This document shows, piece after piece, positions 2,987 to 31,700 of a stretch of DNA of 37,888 nt (the first letter of the stretch is position 1; the number at the start of each line of letters is the position of its first letter). A program made the translations under genes and the position numbers. The notes beneath the pieces were generated by a model, which saw nothing but the letters and a program-made list of their open reading frames with translations, was not told where the DNA came from and ran no database searches. Source of the DNA: Syncephalis plumigaleata (lineage: Eukaryota; Zoopagomycota; Zoopagomycetes; Zoopagales; Piptocephalidaceae). Location of the stretch: contig JAIXMF010000112.1 of the NCBI GenBank assembly GCA_025201365.1, positions 1 through 37,888 of the forward strand, in the 5' to 3' direction.

Positions 2987-3152
2987 TCAGAATAGGACAT
3001 ATTTATTCAATAAATGATTGAATGATCTTGTAGATATATTTCTTGATCCAAGGAATAATGACTTGAATGGCGTGGACACTAAAGGGTCTTGCATCAATAC
3101 ATTCTTGACTTGAATACCTATAATATCTACTTGATGATGTTCTTGTCTTGCT
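2987..3152 (-). other. Possible terminal exon of the micro-exon locus
   Basis: Downstream of the mini-intron array (minus strand) a well-formed acceptor (branch-like CTGAT, then GATTACAG) ends at 3153. After it two frames stay open: one to a TAA at 3003-3005, the other to a TGA at 2987-2989. Either could be the 3' end of a transcript starting at the signal-peptide exon near 4210. I could not show which frame, if any, is used. Frame length alone (about 50 codons) is weak evidence in AT-rich DNA. Confidence 0.25.
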
Positions 3153-3159
3153 CTGTAAT

Positions 3160-4116
3160 CATAGTGGATCAGTATGAGAATGATTGTTATTGTGGATTAT
3201 TACTTACTGCTTAAGGCTATCATTCGATTAACGTTTATTGTATTGTGATTAGCACGTCGTAAATGACGATTGGAATGATAACTTACAAGCTGCCATACAG
3301 GAACATAGAATTATACGCCACGTTGTAATTAGCGCGCCATACATTATGGTCAGAATGGTAACTTACACTCTATCGTATACAAAACATACGTGGATTATGC
3401 GTCATACTGTGATTAGCGTCTCATATATTGCAATGAGAATGGTAACTTACATCCTATCGTATACAAACATACGTGGACCATGCGTCATACTGTGATTAGT
3501 ACTCGTTCATTACGGCCAGAATAGTAACTTACGGGCTGTCATACAGAAACATATATGGATCATGTGCCATACTGTAGTCAGTACGCCATTCATTACGGTC
3601 AGAATAGTAACTTACAAACTGCCATACAGGAACATAGAATTACATGCCACGTTGTAATTAGCGTGCCATTCATTATGGTCAGAATGATAACTTACATCCT
3701 ATCGTATACAAAACATACGTGGATTATGCGTCATACTGTGATTAGCGTCTCATATATTGCAATGAGAATGTTAACTTACGTCCTATCATACACAAGCAGA
3801 CATGGATCATGTGCCATATTATCATTAGTACCTCATTCATTACAGCCATAACGATAACTTACTCCATTTTATAAAACGCATTCATACATGATTTTGATTT
3901 ATGTTACGATTAACATAGTACTTGCTATGACTAATAGGATAGCTTACCAAATTGGGCTAATAAATTAATAGGTAGGATAAACATTGCAACGTGATTAGCA
4001 TGTCAAAACAACTATTTAGTATACATGAACTTACGAGCTATCGGTAATCATCGATGGACAATGAAACAACAGGCTACGATTAGTACATCAATTGATAGGA
4101 TCACGGTCAGACATAC
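3160..4116 (-). repeat. Tandem array of ~80-bp units, most carrying a mini-intron and a 35-40 nt exon-like block
   Basis: On the minus strand donor-like GTAAGT/GTAAGC/GTATGT sequences recur with G at 4116, 4034, 3947, 3862, 3779, 3695, 3615, 3532, 3450, 3366, 3286 and 3207, spacing 79-87 nt. In the clearer units each is followed 43-44 nt later by a branch-plus-acceptor motif such as CGCTAATCACAG or GTACTGACTACAG, then by a 35-40 nt block before the next donor. AG acceptors are intact at 4074-4075 and in the units whose exon blocks are 3696-3735, 3533-3571, 3451-3489 and 3367-3406. They are lost (CACAA, TACAA, GATAA) in others. The two units with donors at 4034 and 3947 are degenerate. The array lies directly behind a signal-peptide exon. 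Units are imperfect and some exon blocks carry a one-base insertion, so the array may be partly decayed. Confidence 0.9.
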
Positions 4117-4210
4117 CACGACGATCCAGGACGGGACTAGCTTCAACGGCGACCAGACTGGCGACAGCGACAACGGCGACGGCAATAGCGATAATGGCAG
4201 AGAACTTCAT
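4117..4210 (-). CDS. Signal-peptide exon of a candidate secreted small protein
   Basis: An ATG at 4208-4210 opens a 31-codon segment that is a textbook signal peptide. Lys-2 is followed by a ~20-residue hydrophobic core of Ala/Val/Ile, an AxA-like cleavage region (AVEA), then SPVLDRR, which could be a propeptide or KEX2-like site. The exon ends at a good GTATGT donor (4116). Intron 1 (4074-4116, branch TACTAAT, acceptor CGTAG) leads into the repeat array. Unspliced, the frame stops after 42 residues. A TATAAAT box lies at 4394-4400, about 185 bp upstream. GC-rich codon use here contrasts with flanking AT-rich DNA, supporting coding. Exon 1 ends in phase 1 whereas the best peptide-repeat frame of the downstream exons needs phase 2, so the full product is unresolved. 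Confidence 0.5.
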
Positions 4211-4393: not shown

Positions 4394-4400
4394 ATTTATA
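4394..4400 (-). promoter_or_regulatory. TATA box of the secreted-protein locus
   Basis: The minus strand reads CTATAAATCG, about 185 bp before the signal-peptide ATG at 4210. The stretch between is pyrimidine-rich on the coding strand, like other 5' leaders in the window. Confidence 0.5.
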
Positions 4401-4410
4401 GCCGAGATGA

Positions 4411-5879
4411 TGATTATGATGGCGGATATTCCTAGTGAGCACAATACGATGATCATAGACCACAGTCAGCTTATCTCCATACGATACTCTCCTTTGTACA
4501 TGGATTGTACTCGAAATGATGGAACATCCATCAGACTGCACGTTTACCATGCCATCCATATGAATATTGACCAGTAGATTTGCTACATGAATGATAGTGC
4601 AATACTGTTATAACAGCATCATGCAAGTTAGTAGTGAATATTGATATAATAGCATTGCCAATCCATTGTTTGTAGGTAGCACACCGAGCAGATAAGTATC
4701 AATTAGATGGAGGAATACATGTCCAGCTTGTTTCTGTCAATTGCCGAATGCAATCCAAAGGCATGAAGCAATATCGACATGAGCTGTTCACGTCACCTAT
4801 CGTATAATTGCATTGTTGTCTTTGTTTACAATGTATCATGTGGCATTGTCGTCTTTGTTTATAATGTATCTTGTGGCATTGTCGTCTTTGTTTACGATGT
4901 ATCATGTAGCATTCCTCTCACTACATGAATGTACATCGTATGTGTTATTACTATTGAATTTGACATGCATCGGGTGAGTGTCAAGATAGTCACTATCATT
5001 TAATCCCATTTAGATGCACACGATGCACATGAGTGTCGATTAAAGTGGAAATGTAAGGAAAGCTATCCCTTTGTTTAATCATTATAACAATTAGTGATGA
5101 ATATCTGCCATGTCGTGTCACCGCATGATCTGTCAATTGCCTGAATCTACACATCATTATCATTTCAGAATACTTCATCAATAATGACGCGTACACCTGT
5201 TACAATCATCATGGCTGGTTATATTCTATTGAAATGATTGTATGAATATAGCTGAATGTAAATCAATCCATATCACGATGATGACAATAACATTAACATG
5301 ATTATTCCATTCATTATCATCGATGTAATGGTCAATTGCACATAGACATGCTGGTCAATACAATGTTAGGATGTATAAACAATCCAAGTAACAAACAGAC
5401 AATCTAAGAAGGCATTGATACGCTAAATAATCGATTGCTAATGATGGATAATTAGTCGTAAATGAAGTATCTACAATTCAATGGAAATGTACTATTGCCA
5501 ATGTCAAGGTATCGCTTTTAGGAAAGCGTGAGTCTTATTGTAGTCCAACAACTCATGGCATACACATCAATTAGGAAATAGCAATAGTGAAATGATACTC
5601 CGTCACCATTCTAGGTAACCATTATCCATTTGTTAGAAATGATCCACGCCGCAAATACAATGAGGACAAGCATCTCCGATAGGTACATTGTGTAGGATTG
5701 CCATGTATGATAGCTATGCGACCATTCATTTATTTCTCGTTTATACGCTTTCCTCGAACTGTTAACGAATTGCATGAAATAGCTAATAGCTAACGATATC
5801 ATACTCTTTACTCTTTATTCTTTTATCGTTGAAACATTCTTGCTACAGTCGATATTATCGAGTGATCACCGTTAGCATT
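4411..5879. other. Long AT-rich intergenic region
   Basis: About 1.4 kb between the divergent signal-peptide locus and the SNG1-like gene. It holds a three-copy 33-bp repeat (4810-4908) and scattered partial repeats containing GTCAATTGC (near 4735, 5126, 5331). Short open frames here lack family resemblance. A small pyrimidine-rich stretch (5800-5825) precedes the next gene. Confidence 0.5.
4810..4913. repeat. 33-bp tandem repeat, three copies
   Basis: Three near-identical units start at 4810, 4843 and 4876 and begin GCATTGTCGTCTTTG; a partial fourth copy is at 4909. The unit is 11 codons long, so it keeps one frame open on the minus strand. That frame has no other sign of coding. Confidence 0.85.
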
Positions 5880-7508
5880 ATGTATATGCACTCGGATTAC
5901 GATACATCCAATGCTAGTCTACCATCGGAATTGGTACCGAGTAGTACGAGCATTGCTACCACCCATCATCAACCAGTCGAGAGTCTAAGCGACGATAGCA
6001 TGCGTAACCAATCGAATCGACGTCATATAAATGTTATTCATGAAGGATTCTCCGAACCATTTCAACTTGCATATACCATTCCCGAGAATATCGCCACCGA
6101 GATCGAGGAGCGTGAACGACGACATGCACCGAAAACATGTTTGGGTCGTATTAGCGAGTTCGTCACTCGTAATGCTAAGAAGTATTCGGTATCGCTTACA
6201 TTTATCGGATTGGCCTGCTTCCTATACCTGTGTAGCTGGCTTTACATTGGTGCACTATGGCATCCTGTCGCATATCTACCTAATCTACCGGTGGCATTAG
6301 TCAATCACGATCAAGGTTTCGCTAGTGATGGGACGACTATTTCCTCCGAAATCCGTTCAGCATTTCTAGCCACTACCGAGCAGCGCTCATTAGGAGAGGT
6401 AATCGTAGAACAATTGTCTGATCCATCAACGACAACAACAGTAGCAGCGCCATTCGTCTGGACTGTATTCTCGGATAAAAGCGATCAGTTACTCGATGAC
6501 AAATTAACGCTATTAGATAAAGATGGCTACATGGCCATTCTAGATATTCCGGCCAATTTTACTGAATGGTTCGTCAAACATTTACAATCAAATGCTACCA
6601 ATCAATCGACCCGTACACCATCACCTACCCTCACATTCTTATACAATAGTGGCCATCATCAACTACTGGATACATTACTAAGGGAATCGATACAAACATC
6701 GATCCAGCAACTTAATAGTCAATTGGGACTACTGTTCCATGAAAGTACTGCTTTAATGAAGTCGATCTCGATAACCATTTCATCCATTGCTTGGACATTG
6801 CCTGTAGATCTGACGATTATGCCACACCACTCAGTGGAACACACCGGTCAATACGCAGCCATTTATCTGCAAGTAATAAGTGTTTATGTTGCCTGTATCG
6901 TCATCGTTTGCCATCTGAATACTTGGCTATCCGTGTCAACCATTAACCACGATCAATATCATCATCACCTTGCCGCAAATCAATCAACGTCTCAATCACG
7001 TCACTTAGCAATGAATTATAAGCGTCATCAATTAGCACTGTTATCACGTACACTCGCTTACACTCTACTGAAATCTATCGGTATTCTAATCGTCATATCT
7101 ACATTACTATGGTCAATACCACTTTGTTTCGAGGGGTTTCAAGCGGACGGAGGTCATCCAGTGGTTTCTCTCATCTGGTTGGTATACACCGGAATTGCAT
7201 TTATCAGCGCGCTTAATCTACTTCGTCTCGTTGTTAATGGCAAGATTCTTCCTTATGCCAGTCTATTCATTCTACTAGTGCTAATTGCCACTAGTAACAT
7301 TATTATGGATTATGAGTTATCACCACGCTTTTATCATTTCGGTTTAGGATTTCCCTTGTTATACGCAATACGTGGATTAGAGTTTCTCGCGTTTGGCTCA
7401 TGGAATGACTGGATGTGGATTAATAGTCTAGTGCTACTAGCATGGATTACAATACCATTATTGATATGCACTGTCGTGACTATTAAACGACATCGATCAA
7501 TGTCATAA
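5880..7508 (+). CDS. SNG1/DUF3533-like (YhgE/Pip-related) multispanning membrane protein
   Basis: A single exon of 542 aa. The ATG at 5880 is used because the longer frame begins at a TTG. Residues 1-98 are a polar cytosolic N-terminus. A first membrane segment (~100-122) leads into HPVAYLPNLPVALVNHDQG, a motif typical of the YhgE/Pip and fungal DUF3533 families. A ~190-residue extramembrane domain follows (VWTVFSDK, then YMAILDIPANF), and then about six hydrophobic helices (from ~330 to the end) of ABC-2-permease type. The best-known fungal member is SNG1, linked to nitrosoguanidine resistance and membrane lipid asymmetry. No ATP-binding partner gene lies beside it. The substrate cannot be told from sequence. 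Confidence 0.75.
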   Translation: MYMHSDYDTSNASLPSELVPSSTSIATTHHQPVESLSDDSMRNQSNRRHINVIHEGFSEPFQLAYTIPENIATEIEERERRHAPKTCLGRISEFVTRNAKKYSVSLTFIGLACFLYLCSWLYIGALWHPVAYLPNLPVALVNHDQGFASDGTTISSEIRSAFLATTEQRSLGEVIVEQLSDPSTTTTVAAPFVWTVFSDKSDQLLDDKLTLLDKDGYMAILDIPANFTEWFVKHLQSNATNQSTRTPSPTLTFLYNSGHHQLLDTLLRESIQTSIQQLNSQLGLLFHESTALMKSISITISSIAWTLPVDLTIMPHHSVEHTGQYAAIYLQVISVYVACIVIVCHLNTWLSVSTINHDQYHHHLAANQSTSQSRHLAMNYKRHQLALLSRTLAYTLLKSIGILIVISTLLWSIPLCFEGFQADGGHPVVSLIWLVYTGIAFISALNLLRLVVNGKILPYASLFILLVLIATSNIIMDYELSPRFYHFGLGFPLLYAIRGLEFLAFGSWNDWMWINSLVLLAWITIPLLICTVVTIKRHRSMS

Positions 7509-19001: not shown

Positions 19002-20202
19002 ATGGTGCAGACTGATCGATCACCTTTATCATCAGTCTCGAAGTTCACAGGAGAAAGTGGGTTTCCTGTGTGCCGTTGGTGCGGCCTTGTCGAACAAGTA
19101 TGGAAAATTAGCGATTACAATGAAGCACAGAAAATAGTTTGGGCTGTTCAGTGATTAGGAGGGTCAGCGGCAGCTTGGCGTCAATCCATGCGTGCTAGTC
19201 ACAAGGCACCTAAGACCTGGGAACAATTTAGAAAGGATATCCTCGTACGTTATGGAGGCAATCGGTCAGCTTCCATCGCTCGGTTGCAGTTATCTAGCTT
19301 GCAGTGGACGGATAATCTCGACTTAGAAGAACATATTACCAGGTTCATGGTCATTCGTAGTCGTATCCCCAACGCAGCAGACGAAGAACTCATTGCGGCA
19401 TTCCGACAAACACTTCTGGTATATTATTTGACTGAGTCCCTTCGAGCAAATCCTTGCAATCTTGATGATACATTCCTCAACACACGCGCCCTTTATTATT
19501 CTCGGCAACATTGCAGAAGTGCAACGACTCCAAACGAAATAAGAAAGGAAGATAATAGCAATGTCACATCTATGGATATTGATGCATTAATTCGAGCACT
19601 AAACAGTTTAGGATTCCAGAATAATCGAAACAATAACAACCACAGGTGTAATAACGATAGTAGTAATGCACGACGTTGCTATGCGTGTGACGAACTAGGC
19701 CACATTGCGAGAAATTGCTTACAGAGGAATCGCAACAATACCTACAGCAATAATCGTCGTCGGCAACACAATAACAATAACAATAGCAATCGTCCGCAAA
19801 ATAGCAATTTAGAAGTAGATTGATCAACATAGGAATGTACATACTAGATGTTAATGACATGAACTCGAGAAACGACACTCATTAGTAATGGCTTGCGATA
19901 CTTCTACTGATGATCAATTCGTCGTTACATCTCTACCAATAAGGATTCCACCTGGTTTGAGCTGGTCCCACTCATTCAGGTACGTGCCACTTTAGCGTTA
20001 CTTATCGTTTCACCTTTGATAAACGGTATATCAGCGCACACATTAATATACTCTGTTGTCTCGACTAATCTCCTTGACAAATCATTCGTAATAAAATAAT
20101 CGTAGATGCTAAACTAGGAAATGAAGTAGAATGTAGCACTATCACTATCAATAAAGCATTTATTGCCAAATACAGAATAACGTGCAATCTAAATGGTTAA
20201 TA
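19002..20202 (+). mobile_element. Degenerate Ty3/Gypsy-like retroelement fragment (gag and remnant protease)
   Basis: From 19002 the frame reads as a Gag protein: SKFTGESG, then RQSMRAS, then TWEQFRKDILVRYG, typical of the retrotransposon gag domain. A CCHC zinc knuckle, CYACDELGHIARNC, and an Asn/Arg-rich tail end at 19823. A TGA at 19152-19154 interrupts gag; the open part from the ATG at 19188 is 211 codons. At ~19982-20095 a retropepsin-like stretch is seen (LINGISAHTLI, LLDKSFVIK) in which the expected catalytic Asp position appears changed to Tyr. Similarity fades by ~20202. Reverse transcriptase, RNase H and integrase are absent, as are recognisable LTRs. This is an inactive relic. Confidence 0.7.
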
Positions 20203-28782: not shown

Positions 28783-31700
28783 TTAAATACTTCGTGTTTC
28801 CACGTATTTTTTACCAATAGACCACATGTAGTCCCATGGTTCAACTCGGCGTTGTACACTTTGTTTACATGCTAATGCGTAATAATAGCCGCGTCGTGCC
28901 AATAGATCGAAATGCGAACCTCGTTCCACTACACGACCATGATGTAGTACCACTAAACGAACATAGAATTAGTAAACATCTCATTTATCTACTTATAAAC
29001 TTACCAATGGTAGAGGCATGCTGTGCCACCGATATGCGACTCGAGGCAATGAGTGATGTACGCTTCTCGAATCCCTTGACTAGATATTGACAATAAAAGA
29101 TACACACACACGCATATTAATAAATAATTGAACATTATCAACGATGAGTGCCTATTACCTCGAGTTGACTTTTTGAGTGCTTCAAGAAATTTAGTCTCAC
29201 TTTCCGGATCCAAATGACGTGTCGGATCATCTAGTAGCAACACTTTCGGTCGACGTATCAACGCTCTGCCTAAAGCAATGAGTTGACGTCGTTGAGCATT
29301 GAGTTCACTGCCAATCTGACTTAGTCGCGTGTCGTAACCTTGTGGTAGACTGGTACACCAACTATCGAGGCCTACTACGCGTGCCGCCGTGATAACATCA
29401 TTCCGAGTGGCATTCGGTAGTCCATACTCGAGACACTCGGCCACCGTATCCCCGAATAGAGCGGCATCCCACTCTACGAATGACATACCCGCGCGTAATG
29501 CATCGATCGTCCAGTCGTTAACATTCTGCCCATCAATCTCCACTTGACCCTTCTTAGCATCGTAGAAACGTGGAAGCATACCGAGGAGTGCACTCTTCCC
29601 GGTACGAGTTGCTCCTACGATGGCCACTAGTCTTCCGGGTTGAATACGAAGATTCAATCGTCGAAAGATAATTGTATCCGGTTGAGTGGGGAATGTAAAT
29701 TGCACATTTCTGAAGGTGATCTGACCCTTCTTGTATTGTGGTTGATTTGTCGGCGGTTGTGTCTCATTACCGTCATCGGATGACGGTGTATCCGGTGATG
29801 GCAAAGCTGGTGCATCCATAACACGGAATACACTAATCATTATTGTGGATTAGTGTTACTATTACTATCAAGTAGTATCTTTTTGTATAGTTACCTTAAG
29901 GCAGCTGTAGTCGCCTCGTCATATTGTCCCCATAGTTTCATAAGTGTACTACCACTTGTAATGGTAAACATAATGGTAAACAATATGACAAGCATGTTAC
30001 GTAGACTGTAGCTATCACTGGTCACTACATACATGCCATAACCGAAAGAGACGGCATAAATCATAATGAGTAGACCTGATCGAGTATTCATGAATTGTAA
30101 AAAAAGTTCAAATAATCAATATCTACATACATCTTCTATAGTATACACTCTACCTTGTGACAAACCATAACCTGCAGAGGATATGAGAGCGGCTCGTACG
30201 GCTACTTGAAACGGTGCATTACTCGCGGCTATGATAATTACAATAGTAAGCAATGAACTATACATTTAGTACTAGACTAGTTACCTTCAAAGTAAGCTTG
30301 AAATGATTGATCACGACCCAACGCGATAACCATACGAAAATTGGGTACACTCTGACGTACAATACGTACGGCTTTCTCAAATGCTTTAGCCGATCGTTTA
30401 CCAAGTCTATTCATCAATTAGTCCTAACAGTTATTATGATGATGATGTAATACAGTAACCCTAACAAATACTTACCGTAAAATGGCATTGACATGTAAAT
30501 CACTGGCACCAGATACAGCGGGGAAGCATGCCATGATTAGAAATGCGAAATTCCATCTAGATTGCATCTTTAAGCTTTACATGTTATGTTACAACATCAT
30601 TAATGCAATAAACTTACCCTTTAGCGAATGCAATGGATACACCCGTTACTACAGTAATTAAATGAAGTAATGCTTCACCCCATAATTCTGTAATGATAGG
30701 TGGTACACGAACTGGATCAAGTGCGAGTGTCTGGGTAAGAGCAGCTATTATTGATTATGGAATTATCATTATTAACAAACAAACTAACAAATAATAAATA
30801 GATTACCTGTACTATTCTCTGGTTTATCAAAGAATGCCATACGTTGATGTAGTATGTTATGCAATGCCTTAATCCGTAATCGACCCACTAAACGTTCACC
30901 GGCACGACCAAATAACGCACCCTGTGCATAACGACATATACAGGATACATTGGCGAGGGTAAGTGCCATCAAGGCCCAAAAGTCTGCTCGTTCTCGTAGG
31001 GTAGTTGGTCTAAAAGAGATGCAAATATAAATGTCTACATTCCTATTCTATTTGATACTTACTTGTTAACCGCCATTAGACTGACAAGTAACTCGGCGAA
31101 TATCCAAGCAAAGAATGGCAAGACTAATCCGTTGATCATGGAAGCAATACTACCACCGAGTACAAACCATTTCTCGGGTGCTGCTTCCTTTAATAATCGG
31201 ATTAATGGCACTTTCTTGCCCTCGTCACTCTCCTCCTCTGGTGCTTTACCCGGTTTACCATCGATATCCTTTTGAATACGCCCTGCTTTGGCACCATTAC
31301 GAATAATGAATAATTTACGCTTGGGTGGATCAGTCTCCTGTGGACTATCCGCACTTGGTGTTGTTTTATCCTCCAATTTCGTAGTTGCTTTCGTTTTCTC
31401 TTTCAATTTCACGTCTTGTTTAGCCTCCTTAGATTTAACCATTTTCTTACGACTAAATGGATCAATGTACTCGCCACCATAATCATCGTCGTCATCATCA
31501 TCATCTTTATCCTCTTCATCTTTATCTTCATCGGAATGCTGCCCAGCTGGATCATCTTCCCGTTTACCTTGACGTTCTGCCTGTTCCGCCACAAGTAGTT
31601 TCATGTATGCACCCTTTACAGCCAGCAATTGATCATGCGTACCCGATTCAATAATCTCACCATCATTAAGCACCACTGATAATAACAATTAGATCTATAC

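Follow-up and report, generated by a model that had tools for sequence, protein, structure and literature searches.

A tandem array of short units lies behind a predicted signal-peptide exon in the fungus Syncephalis plumigaleata, each unit beginning with what looks like a splice donor, and the question raised by this locus is which of its letters, if any, would remain in the mRNA. The analysis covered DNA only, from one genome (a 32.6-Mb assembly of 383 contigs); the window, i.e., the whole stretch analyzed, is contig C16 over 37,888 nt. Twelve donor-like words on the minus strand, spaced 79-87 nt apart (ten GTAAGT, one GTAAGC, and one GTATGT), had been reported in a first-pass annotation, and all of them were re-found by word search (Table 1), along with three extra GTATGT words that lie off-register in the array, at 3718, 3472, and 3389. 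TRF described the array as a repeat of period 83 with 6.5 copies and 71% matches (3324-3862), and 10 of the 43 minus-strand GTAAGT words of the window fall inside 0.83 kb of array. The earlier view that the amplified element is a combined intron-plus-exon unit, situated behind a signal-peptide exon, was borne out, and the TATAAAT word upstream is present as well. We consider it highly probable (roughly 0.9) that the array is one of a large family of genes for secreted peptides, with a spliceosomal intron of ~80 nt after every codon of the mature region. Elsewhere in the window, we noted a 33-bp tandem repeat of 3.2 copies upstream of the promoter (4810-4913) and, by Pfam, a DUF3533 membrane protein (5790-7505), a retrotransposon gag with zinc knuckle (19155-19820), and an ABC transporter domain (29004-29849).

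Table 1. Predicted features of the window copy (L001), with the contigs of the intron-free relatives.
Feature	Position	Strand	Detail
TATA-box-like TATAAAT	4394..4400	-	190 nt upstream of ATG
Exon 1	4117..4210	-	MKFSAIIAIAVAVVAVASLVAVEASPVLDRR + first base of next codon
Intron 1	4038..4116	-	GTATGT ... TACTAAT ... GATAG
Unit 1 exon	4035..4037	-	CTC, 3 nt
Unit 2 exon	3948..3956	-	CCCAATTTG, 9 nt
Unit 3	3863..3947	-	donor GTAAGC; without acceptor AG near its end
Unit 4 one-codon exon	3780..3782	-	GAC
Unit 5 one-codon exon	3696..3698	-	GAT
Unit 6 one-codon exon	3616..3618	-	TTT
Unit 7 one-codon exon	3533..3535	-	CCC
Unit 8 one-codon exon	3451..3453	-	GAT
Unit 9 one-codon exon	3367..3369	-	AGT
Unit 10 one-codon exon	3287..3289	-	CTT
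Last unit exon	3208..3216	-	CCTTAAGCA with conserved TAA
Final intron, in 3'UTR	3153..3207	-	GTAAGT ... TACTGAT ... GATTACAG, 55 nt
3'UTR exon	2996..3152	-	starts AGCAAGACAAGAACATCATC; family-wide; far end approximate (TTTATTGAATAAATATGTC)
Donors other than GTAAGT	4116, 3947	-	GTATGT, GTAAGC; word search
GTAAGT donors	4034, 3862, 3779, 3695, 3615, 3532, 3450, 3366, 3286, 3207	-	
Intron-free loci L060-L069, in order	contigs C329, C1, C37, C223, C135, C364, C179, C1, C112, C340		

Comparison of the units revealed a constant order, i.e., GTAAGT, ~30 nt, TACTAAT/C (the mid-unit branch site being CTAAT/CTAAC), ~42 nt ending in TGTATRATAG or similar, three letters, and the next GTAAGT. In the window copy, an AG ahead of the next donor was seen by eye in 10 of the 11 internal units, at a distance of 3 nt (units 1 and 4-10) or 9 nt (units 2 and 11), and unit 3 alone was without it. 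Across the 39 parsed loci (L055 was left out), 517 of 523 middle units, i.e., those from unit 4 to the last but one, have their AG exactly 3 nt ahead of the next donor. Between the eighth nucleotide past the branch and this terminal AG, 502 units contained 8 AGs vs 717 expected from composition (the GA control gave 805), the pattern that a terminal acceptor AG would predict. Since AG is scarce before the branch site as well, though less so (291 vs 808 expected), part of this depletion reflects composition or descent. In a column alignment for which the presence of the AG was a condition of inclusion, GTAAGT reached 1.64-2.0 bits vs 0.04 and 0.06 bits at codon positions 1 and 2, the lowest among 51 columns. 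As the units are related by descent, counts of them are not independent. By sequence, the units appear to possess the hallmarks of spliceosomal GT-AG introns, with a 5' GTRAGT, a CTRAY branch site, and an AG-free run to the 3' AG. With the conserved acceptor placed 3 nt ahead of the next donor, the micro-exon would be a single codon, and the block of 35-40 nt previously taken for the exon would be the 3' part of the intron. The statement that several units have lost their AG was, for the same reason, mostly an artefact of the acceptor assumed; it stands for unit 3 of the window copy.

The predicted three-letter exons behave as codons. Forty-four of the 64 possible triplets occur between AG and donor and none of the 517 is a stop, whereas positional composition predicts 9.8 stops in 514 (the 460 distinct units are not independent); read in either shifted phase, these strings have stops in 7/476 and 48/476 triplets. 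Third-position usage in the array was close to that in eight intron-free paralogues (229 codons), at T.48/.46, C.30/.25, A.12/.18, and G.10/.11. These paralogues are among ten further loci (L060-L069) that were fetched and that have the signal-peptide family in a running frame with no array introns; GTAAGT/C, GTATGT, and GTGAGT were absent from all ten within ~620 nt from the ATG. In L060-L067 the peptide comes directly after RR, reading RRAPQ in L060 and L063 and RRTPQ in L066, like the spliced array genes, and joining the CTC exon of the window copy to its next exon yields RR-A-PQF, the same as in L060. At the other end, L063, L064, and L065 have TAAGCA fused to AACAAGACAAG, which is the predicted last junction. 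The junctions predicted for the array genes are thus already fused in their intron-free paralogues, which also put the shared sequence after the last junction in the 3'UTR. A different reading of the last unit, with acceptor TTAAG, a 2-nt exon, and a C-terminus TRQGHHQVD..., was dropped because the intron-free paralogues place that region behind the stop. In L068 and L069 the mature part is different, and L068 reads into the 3' stretch without a stop. The mature parts of L060-L069 are as variable as those of the array genes (e.g., glycine-rich or PC-repeat). We also discarded the idea that these are plain retrocopies, as L062 (C37) has the upstream region of the array genes. All ten hold recognizable pieces of the family 3' stretch (by eye), and the shared upstream and 3' stretches suggest either an older state or intron loss by conversion.

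In silico splicing was then used as a reading of the frame. Exon 1 stops one base into a codon; its translations have a hydrophobic N-terminus (by eye), and RR closes it in 36 of the 39 parsed loci. In the window copy, exon 1 likewise appears by eye to encode a signal peptide followed by a Kex2-like RR, cleavage by Kex2 itself being putative. The exon of unit 1 has 3 nt in 35 of 39 loci and that of unit 2 has 9 nt (30 loci) or 3 nt (9 loci), and unit 3 ends in a phase-setting exon of 5 nt (28) or 2 nt (7) in 35 of 39 loci, giving phase 0 where the one-codon exons begin; the exons of units 1-3 vary in length, and some choices between a 3-nt and a 9-nt acceptor are ambiguous. Among the 33 complete loci, i.e., those in which the chain reaches the last unit exon (six other chains are partial), the parser met its first stop in the last unit exon in 23, as TAA in 20 and as TGA in L028, L032, and L039. 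Two more (L040 and L044) were not open by parser and open by eye. Eight of the 33 look damaged: the window copy, L021, and L022 have lost the unit-3 exon and its acceptor, exon 1 is frameshifted in L027, L043, and L058, and L035 and L038 have a 2-nt exon within the array. The window copy is thus probably a damaged member of the family. A second exon-1-like fragment was seen at 90-175 of L043, ~1.5 kb upstream of the array gene.

In the 23 open genes, 14-38 exons precede the 3'UTR exon, and 366 of their 367 middle exons have 3 nt and phase 0, with as many as 33 in a row. A frame offset of one or two introduced at exon 4 left 16/23 and 6/23 loci open and, since shifted frames often stay open, openness alone is weak evidence. 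Cysteine occurs in 8 of the 23 open loci, always exactly four in the order C..CC..C, and the other fifteen have none; this framework appears only once the codons are joined. The eight loci represent seven distinct peptides, those of L036 and L042 being identical; L044, which is not among the 23, has two cysteines instead of four. Under one signal peptide, we found four-cysteine, WGPPPP, histidine-rich, and other groups of peptides, which presumably resemble venom- or effector-like families such as the conotoxins. A Pfam search with five spliced proteins gave no matches above the curated cut-off, a PDB sequence search with one peptide gave nothing credible (best E 0.29), and a UstYa search gave no match, nor did its controls, so that it carries no weight. 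As read from these predicted proteins, the array products would be hypervariable secreted peptides, probably cut by Kex2.

Other readings of the array have to be weighed against these results. The first-pass annotation placed the acceptor beside the branch word, with micro-exons of 35-40 nt behind it, and pairs of this type (CTAATCACAG), with an AG a few nt from the branch A, do exist: the window copy has them in 5 of its 11 internal units (units 1, 5, 7, 8, and 9) and no more, and across the family an AG falls no further than 8 nt from the branch A in 90 of 502 units. The remaining units are without one, whereas the terminal AG is near-invariant behind a stretch nearly free of AG. A branch-to-AG distance of ~6 nt, as such exons imply, falls short of what splicing usually requires. 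In units 5, 8, and 9 the block after CTAATCACAG begins TATGACGCAT, and by eye that of unit 5 has a stop in every frame. We find exons of this size scarcely credible. It is also very unlikely that the array is a satellite or a decayed array forming one long intron, whose splice-like words come from a single ancestral unit and which leaves the mRNA, possibly by stepwise recursive removal, with exon 1 joined straight to AACAAGACAAGG of the 3' exon and with no codons between them. The units are indeed copies of one another, and splicing of exon 1 to the final exon is formally possible. However, no part of the unit varies more than the 3 nt that separate AG from GT, yet these are free of stops, and they yield C..CC..C and a single frame to the stop of the last unit, although a recursive splice site needs no constant three coding letters; moreover, the intron-free paralogues encode a peptide in this position.

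A further possibility is that the one-codon exons are real and that their output is mainly combinatorial through exon skipping, as in schistosome micro-exon genes (MEGs), which overlaps the explanation we favor and does not exclude it. The splice signals of neighboring units are nearly identical and, since nearly all middle exons have 3 nt and phase 0, skipping would keep the frame. Nevertheless, the four-cysteine order in 8/8 cysteine-bearing intact loci speaks for one product, and the codon strings of paired copies are identical (e.g., 69/69 letters in L036/L042); we regard a mainly combinatorial output as unlikely.

Under the favored explanation, in which an intron follows every mature-region codon, exon 1 would supply the signal peptide and the Kex2-like RR, with putative cleavage after RR. 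The exons of units 1-3 would set the phase (usually with 3 nt in unit 1, 9 or 3 nt in unit 2, and 5 or 2 nt in unit 3), each unit from the fourth onward would contribute a single phase-0 codon, the last unit exon would hold the stop, and the final intron would lie in the 3'UTR. Splicing of the codons, as we infer it from sequence, would proceed by intron definition, the acceptor being the first AG past the mid-unit branch site, across ~42 nt nearly free of AG. Since a 3-nt exon offers nothing constant, donor choice would rest on the near-invariant intronic GTAAGT, and, as each intron is removed, its codon would become part of an upstream exon that keeps growing, which would leave an exon of normal size ahead of the next donor. 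Because neighboring units are homologous, unequal exchange between introns could add or remove whole codons without a frameshift.

The array is no chance local repeat. A DNA search of its own genome with the window array gave at least 116 matches (40 scored of 218 candidates), and 39 loci were fetched with flanks and studied with the window copy, 40 in all. Dispersed relatives of the array exist, and exon 1 was found in 40/40 of the loci read. A search with the exon-1 peptide gave at least 150 matches (150 scored of 173 candidates), i.e., ~170 candidate loci, in some of which the reading frame continues past RR. Intron 1 has at least 107 candidates genome-wide, the 40 scored all being at least 92% identical, and a 306-nt region upstream of the ATG is common to family loci (40 of 172 candidates scored). 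The pattern GTAAGT-N(60-82)-AG-N(k)-GTAAGT has 1918 occurrences across the genome at k=3, compared with 25, 26, and 108 at k=4, 5, and 6. These other spacings served as the control since the reversed pattern (102, 203, 62, and 38 for k=3, 4, 5, and 6) was a poor one, probably because array units contain TGAATG. In viral contigs, the one-codon unit pattern had 205 matches, none confirmed as a relative. Runs of the one-codon pattern at G000:C1:1412781-1416851 and C1:2256065-2256397 have no nearby exon-1 match among the 150 scored, and their introns are quite different in sequence; they are possibly further families of the same layout. Two other runs (G000:C58:10437-12755 and C223:612325-614641) have an AG six nt before the donor with equal spacing in both, perhaps reflecting two-codon exons or an extra AG. 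A family of ~170 candidate loci, hypervariable codons, intron-free paralogues, and a last intron in the 3'UTR all go beyond what had been noted at this locus.

Divergence of codons and introns was compared all-against-all among 517 units, in pairs that are not independent. Where introns were ~2% apart, codons were 9% apart between loci and 22% within a locus; the corresponding figures were 22% and 36% at 5% intron divergence, 33% and 45% at 10%, and 63% and 61% at 18%. Codons thus exceed introns in divergence in every class with any intron difference. In eight recent pairs with units in register, 2/267 codon letters had changed vs 124/7039 intron letters. In the older pair L047/L054, the counts in register were 11/57 codon vs 96/1506 intron letters (P 0.001), or 15/66 vs 136/1814 by plain position (P 1.4e-4), and in the likewise older pair L047/L052 in register they were 13/39 vs 117/1040 (P 3e-4). 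Codons therefore change more than introns in older pairs and not in recent ones. Of the eight codons of L047/L054 that differ by position, six alter the amino acid, five of these via 2-3 letters, and the cysteines are kept. Exchange that homogenizes introns would mimic fast codons, and both selection and unit swapping are possible.

In the collinear pairs L023/L024 and L026/L039, ~94-95% identical, the differences are entire units and hence entire codons: relative to L023, L024 carries two extra codons, and relative to L026, L039 carries one extra and lacks one. A four-unit block of the window copy is missing in L021, the flanks being not collinear throughout. Eight pairs (L023/L024, L026/L039, L031/L034, L046/L049, L028/L032, L036/L042, L025/L027, and L056/L057) are 94-99% identical with collinear flanks, most with one member on a small contig, and are haplotype copies or segmental duplicates. 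The small contigs C379, C338, and C102 match large ones at 97-99%, and the assembly may contain haplotype copies. In L036/L042, exon 1 differs at 12/94 sites vs array introns that are 95.8% identical, a contrast suggesting that the signal-peptide exon has been converted or exchanged between loci.

As to function, there may be about an even chance that these genes supply fast-evolving secreted peptides directed against a host, prey, or competitor. More tentatively, and with the odds somewhat against it, the one-codon exons could themselves be an adaptation, i.e., a codon-shuffling device in which a recombining intron stands between codons and single amino acids are gained, lost, or swapped in frame, over about a hundred array loci (107 intron-1 candidates) and up to ~1900 one-codon exons, possibly with combinatorial splicing in addition. 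The layout could allow single amino acids to be added, lost, or swapped with the gene unbroken; if it is selected, the introns would be recombination spacers, and the peptide would evolve residue by residue without frameshifts. The usual rule is reversed in these genes, the introns being alike and the exons hypervariable. Exon size would be pushed to the smallest coding unit, dozens in a row, which would test spliceosomal exon definition, as donor and 3' splice site would need to be recognized merely 3 nt apart. Since ordinary gene prediction very likely misses such genes, comparable families may hide in other genomes.

Several known systems share parts of this layout. Secreted peptides of fungi that are processed by Kex2 (KEPs, pheromone, and RiPP precursors) share a signal peptide and a dibasic RR before a variable peptide. 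KEPs are characterized by repeated motifs (PMC6339444), whereas a repeated core separated by dibasic sites was seen by eye in 0/23 spliced array peptides. SP7-like effectors of arbuscular mycorrhizal fungi are likewise a secreted fungal family with a conserved intron ahead of a variable part; their repeats stand behind that one conserved intron (PMC11333574), unlike the one codon per exon of the array genes. The 1-nt exon of Fusarium CYP621A, for which an intron-free relative likewise served as an argument (PMC12940212), shows exons of one or a few nt to be within reach of fungal spliceosomes; it is a single exon, isolated in a conserved enzyme motif, vs dozens in a hypervariable peptide in the array. 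Isolated exons of 3 nt appear to be on record elsewhere, and no runs of one-codon exons in a gene were found among the top-ranked results in openly licensed PMC full texts. Aphid bicycle genes resemble the array family in comprising many secreted candidate effectors with unusually small internal exons of one phase. They have ~17 exons on average, nearly all internal exons being of phase 2 (PMC9168663); compared by description, the array genes differ in having one codon per exon, phase 0, and introns that are recognizable copies of each other. The resemblance to secreted micro-exon genes seen in the first-pass annotation appears to hold, a signal-peptide exon being followed by an array of tiny exons. 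Schistosome MEGs, like the array genes, have a signal-peptide exon, then many tiny in-phase exons, and variable secreted products; their short exons are symmetric, measure 6-36 bp, and make up ~80% of the coding region (PMC5825161). Compared by that description, the array genes, with 3-nt exons (366/367 middle exons), lie below 6-36 bp and belong to a different kingdom. We class the array family as an extreme variant of the micro-exon gene kind rather than as MEGs.
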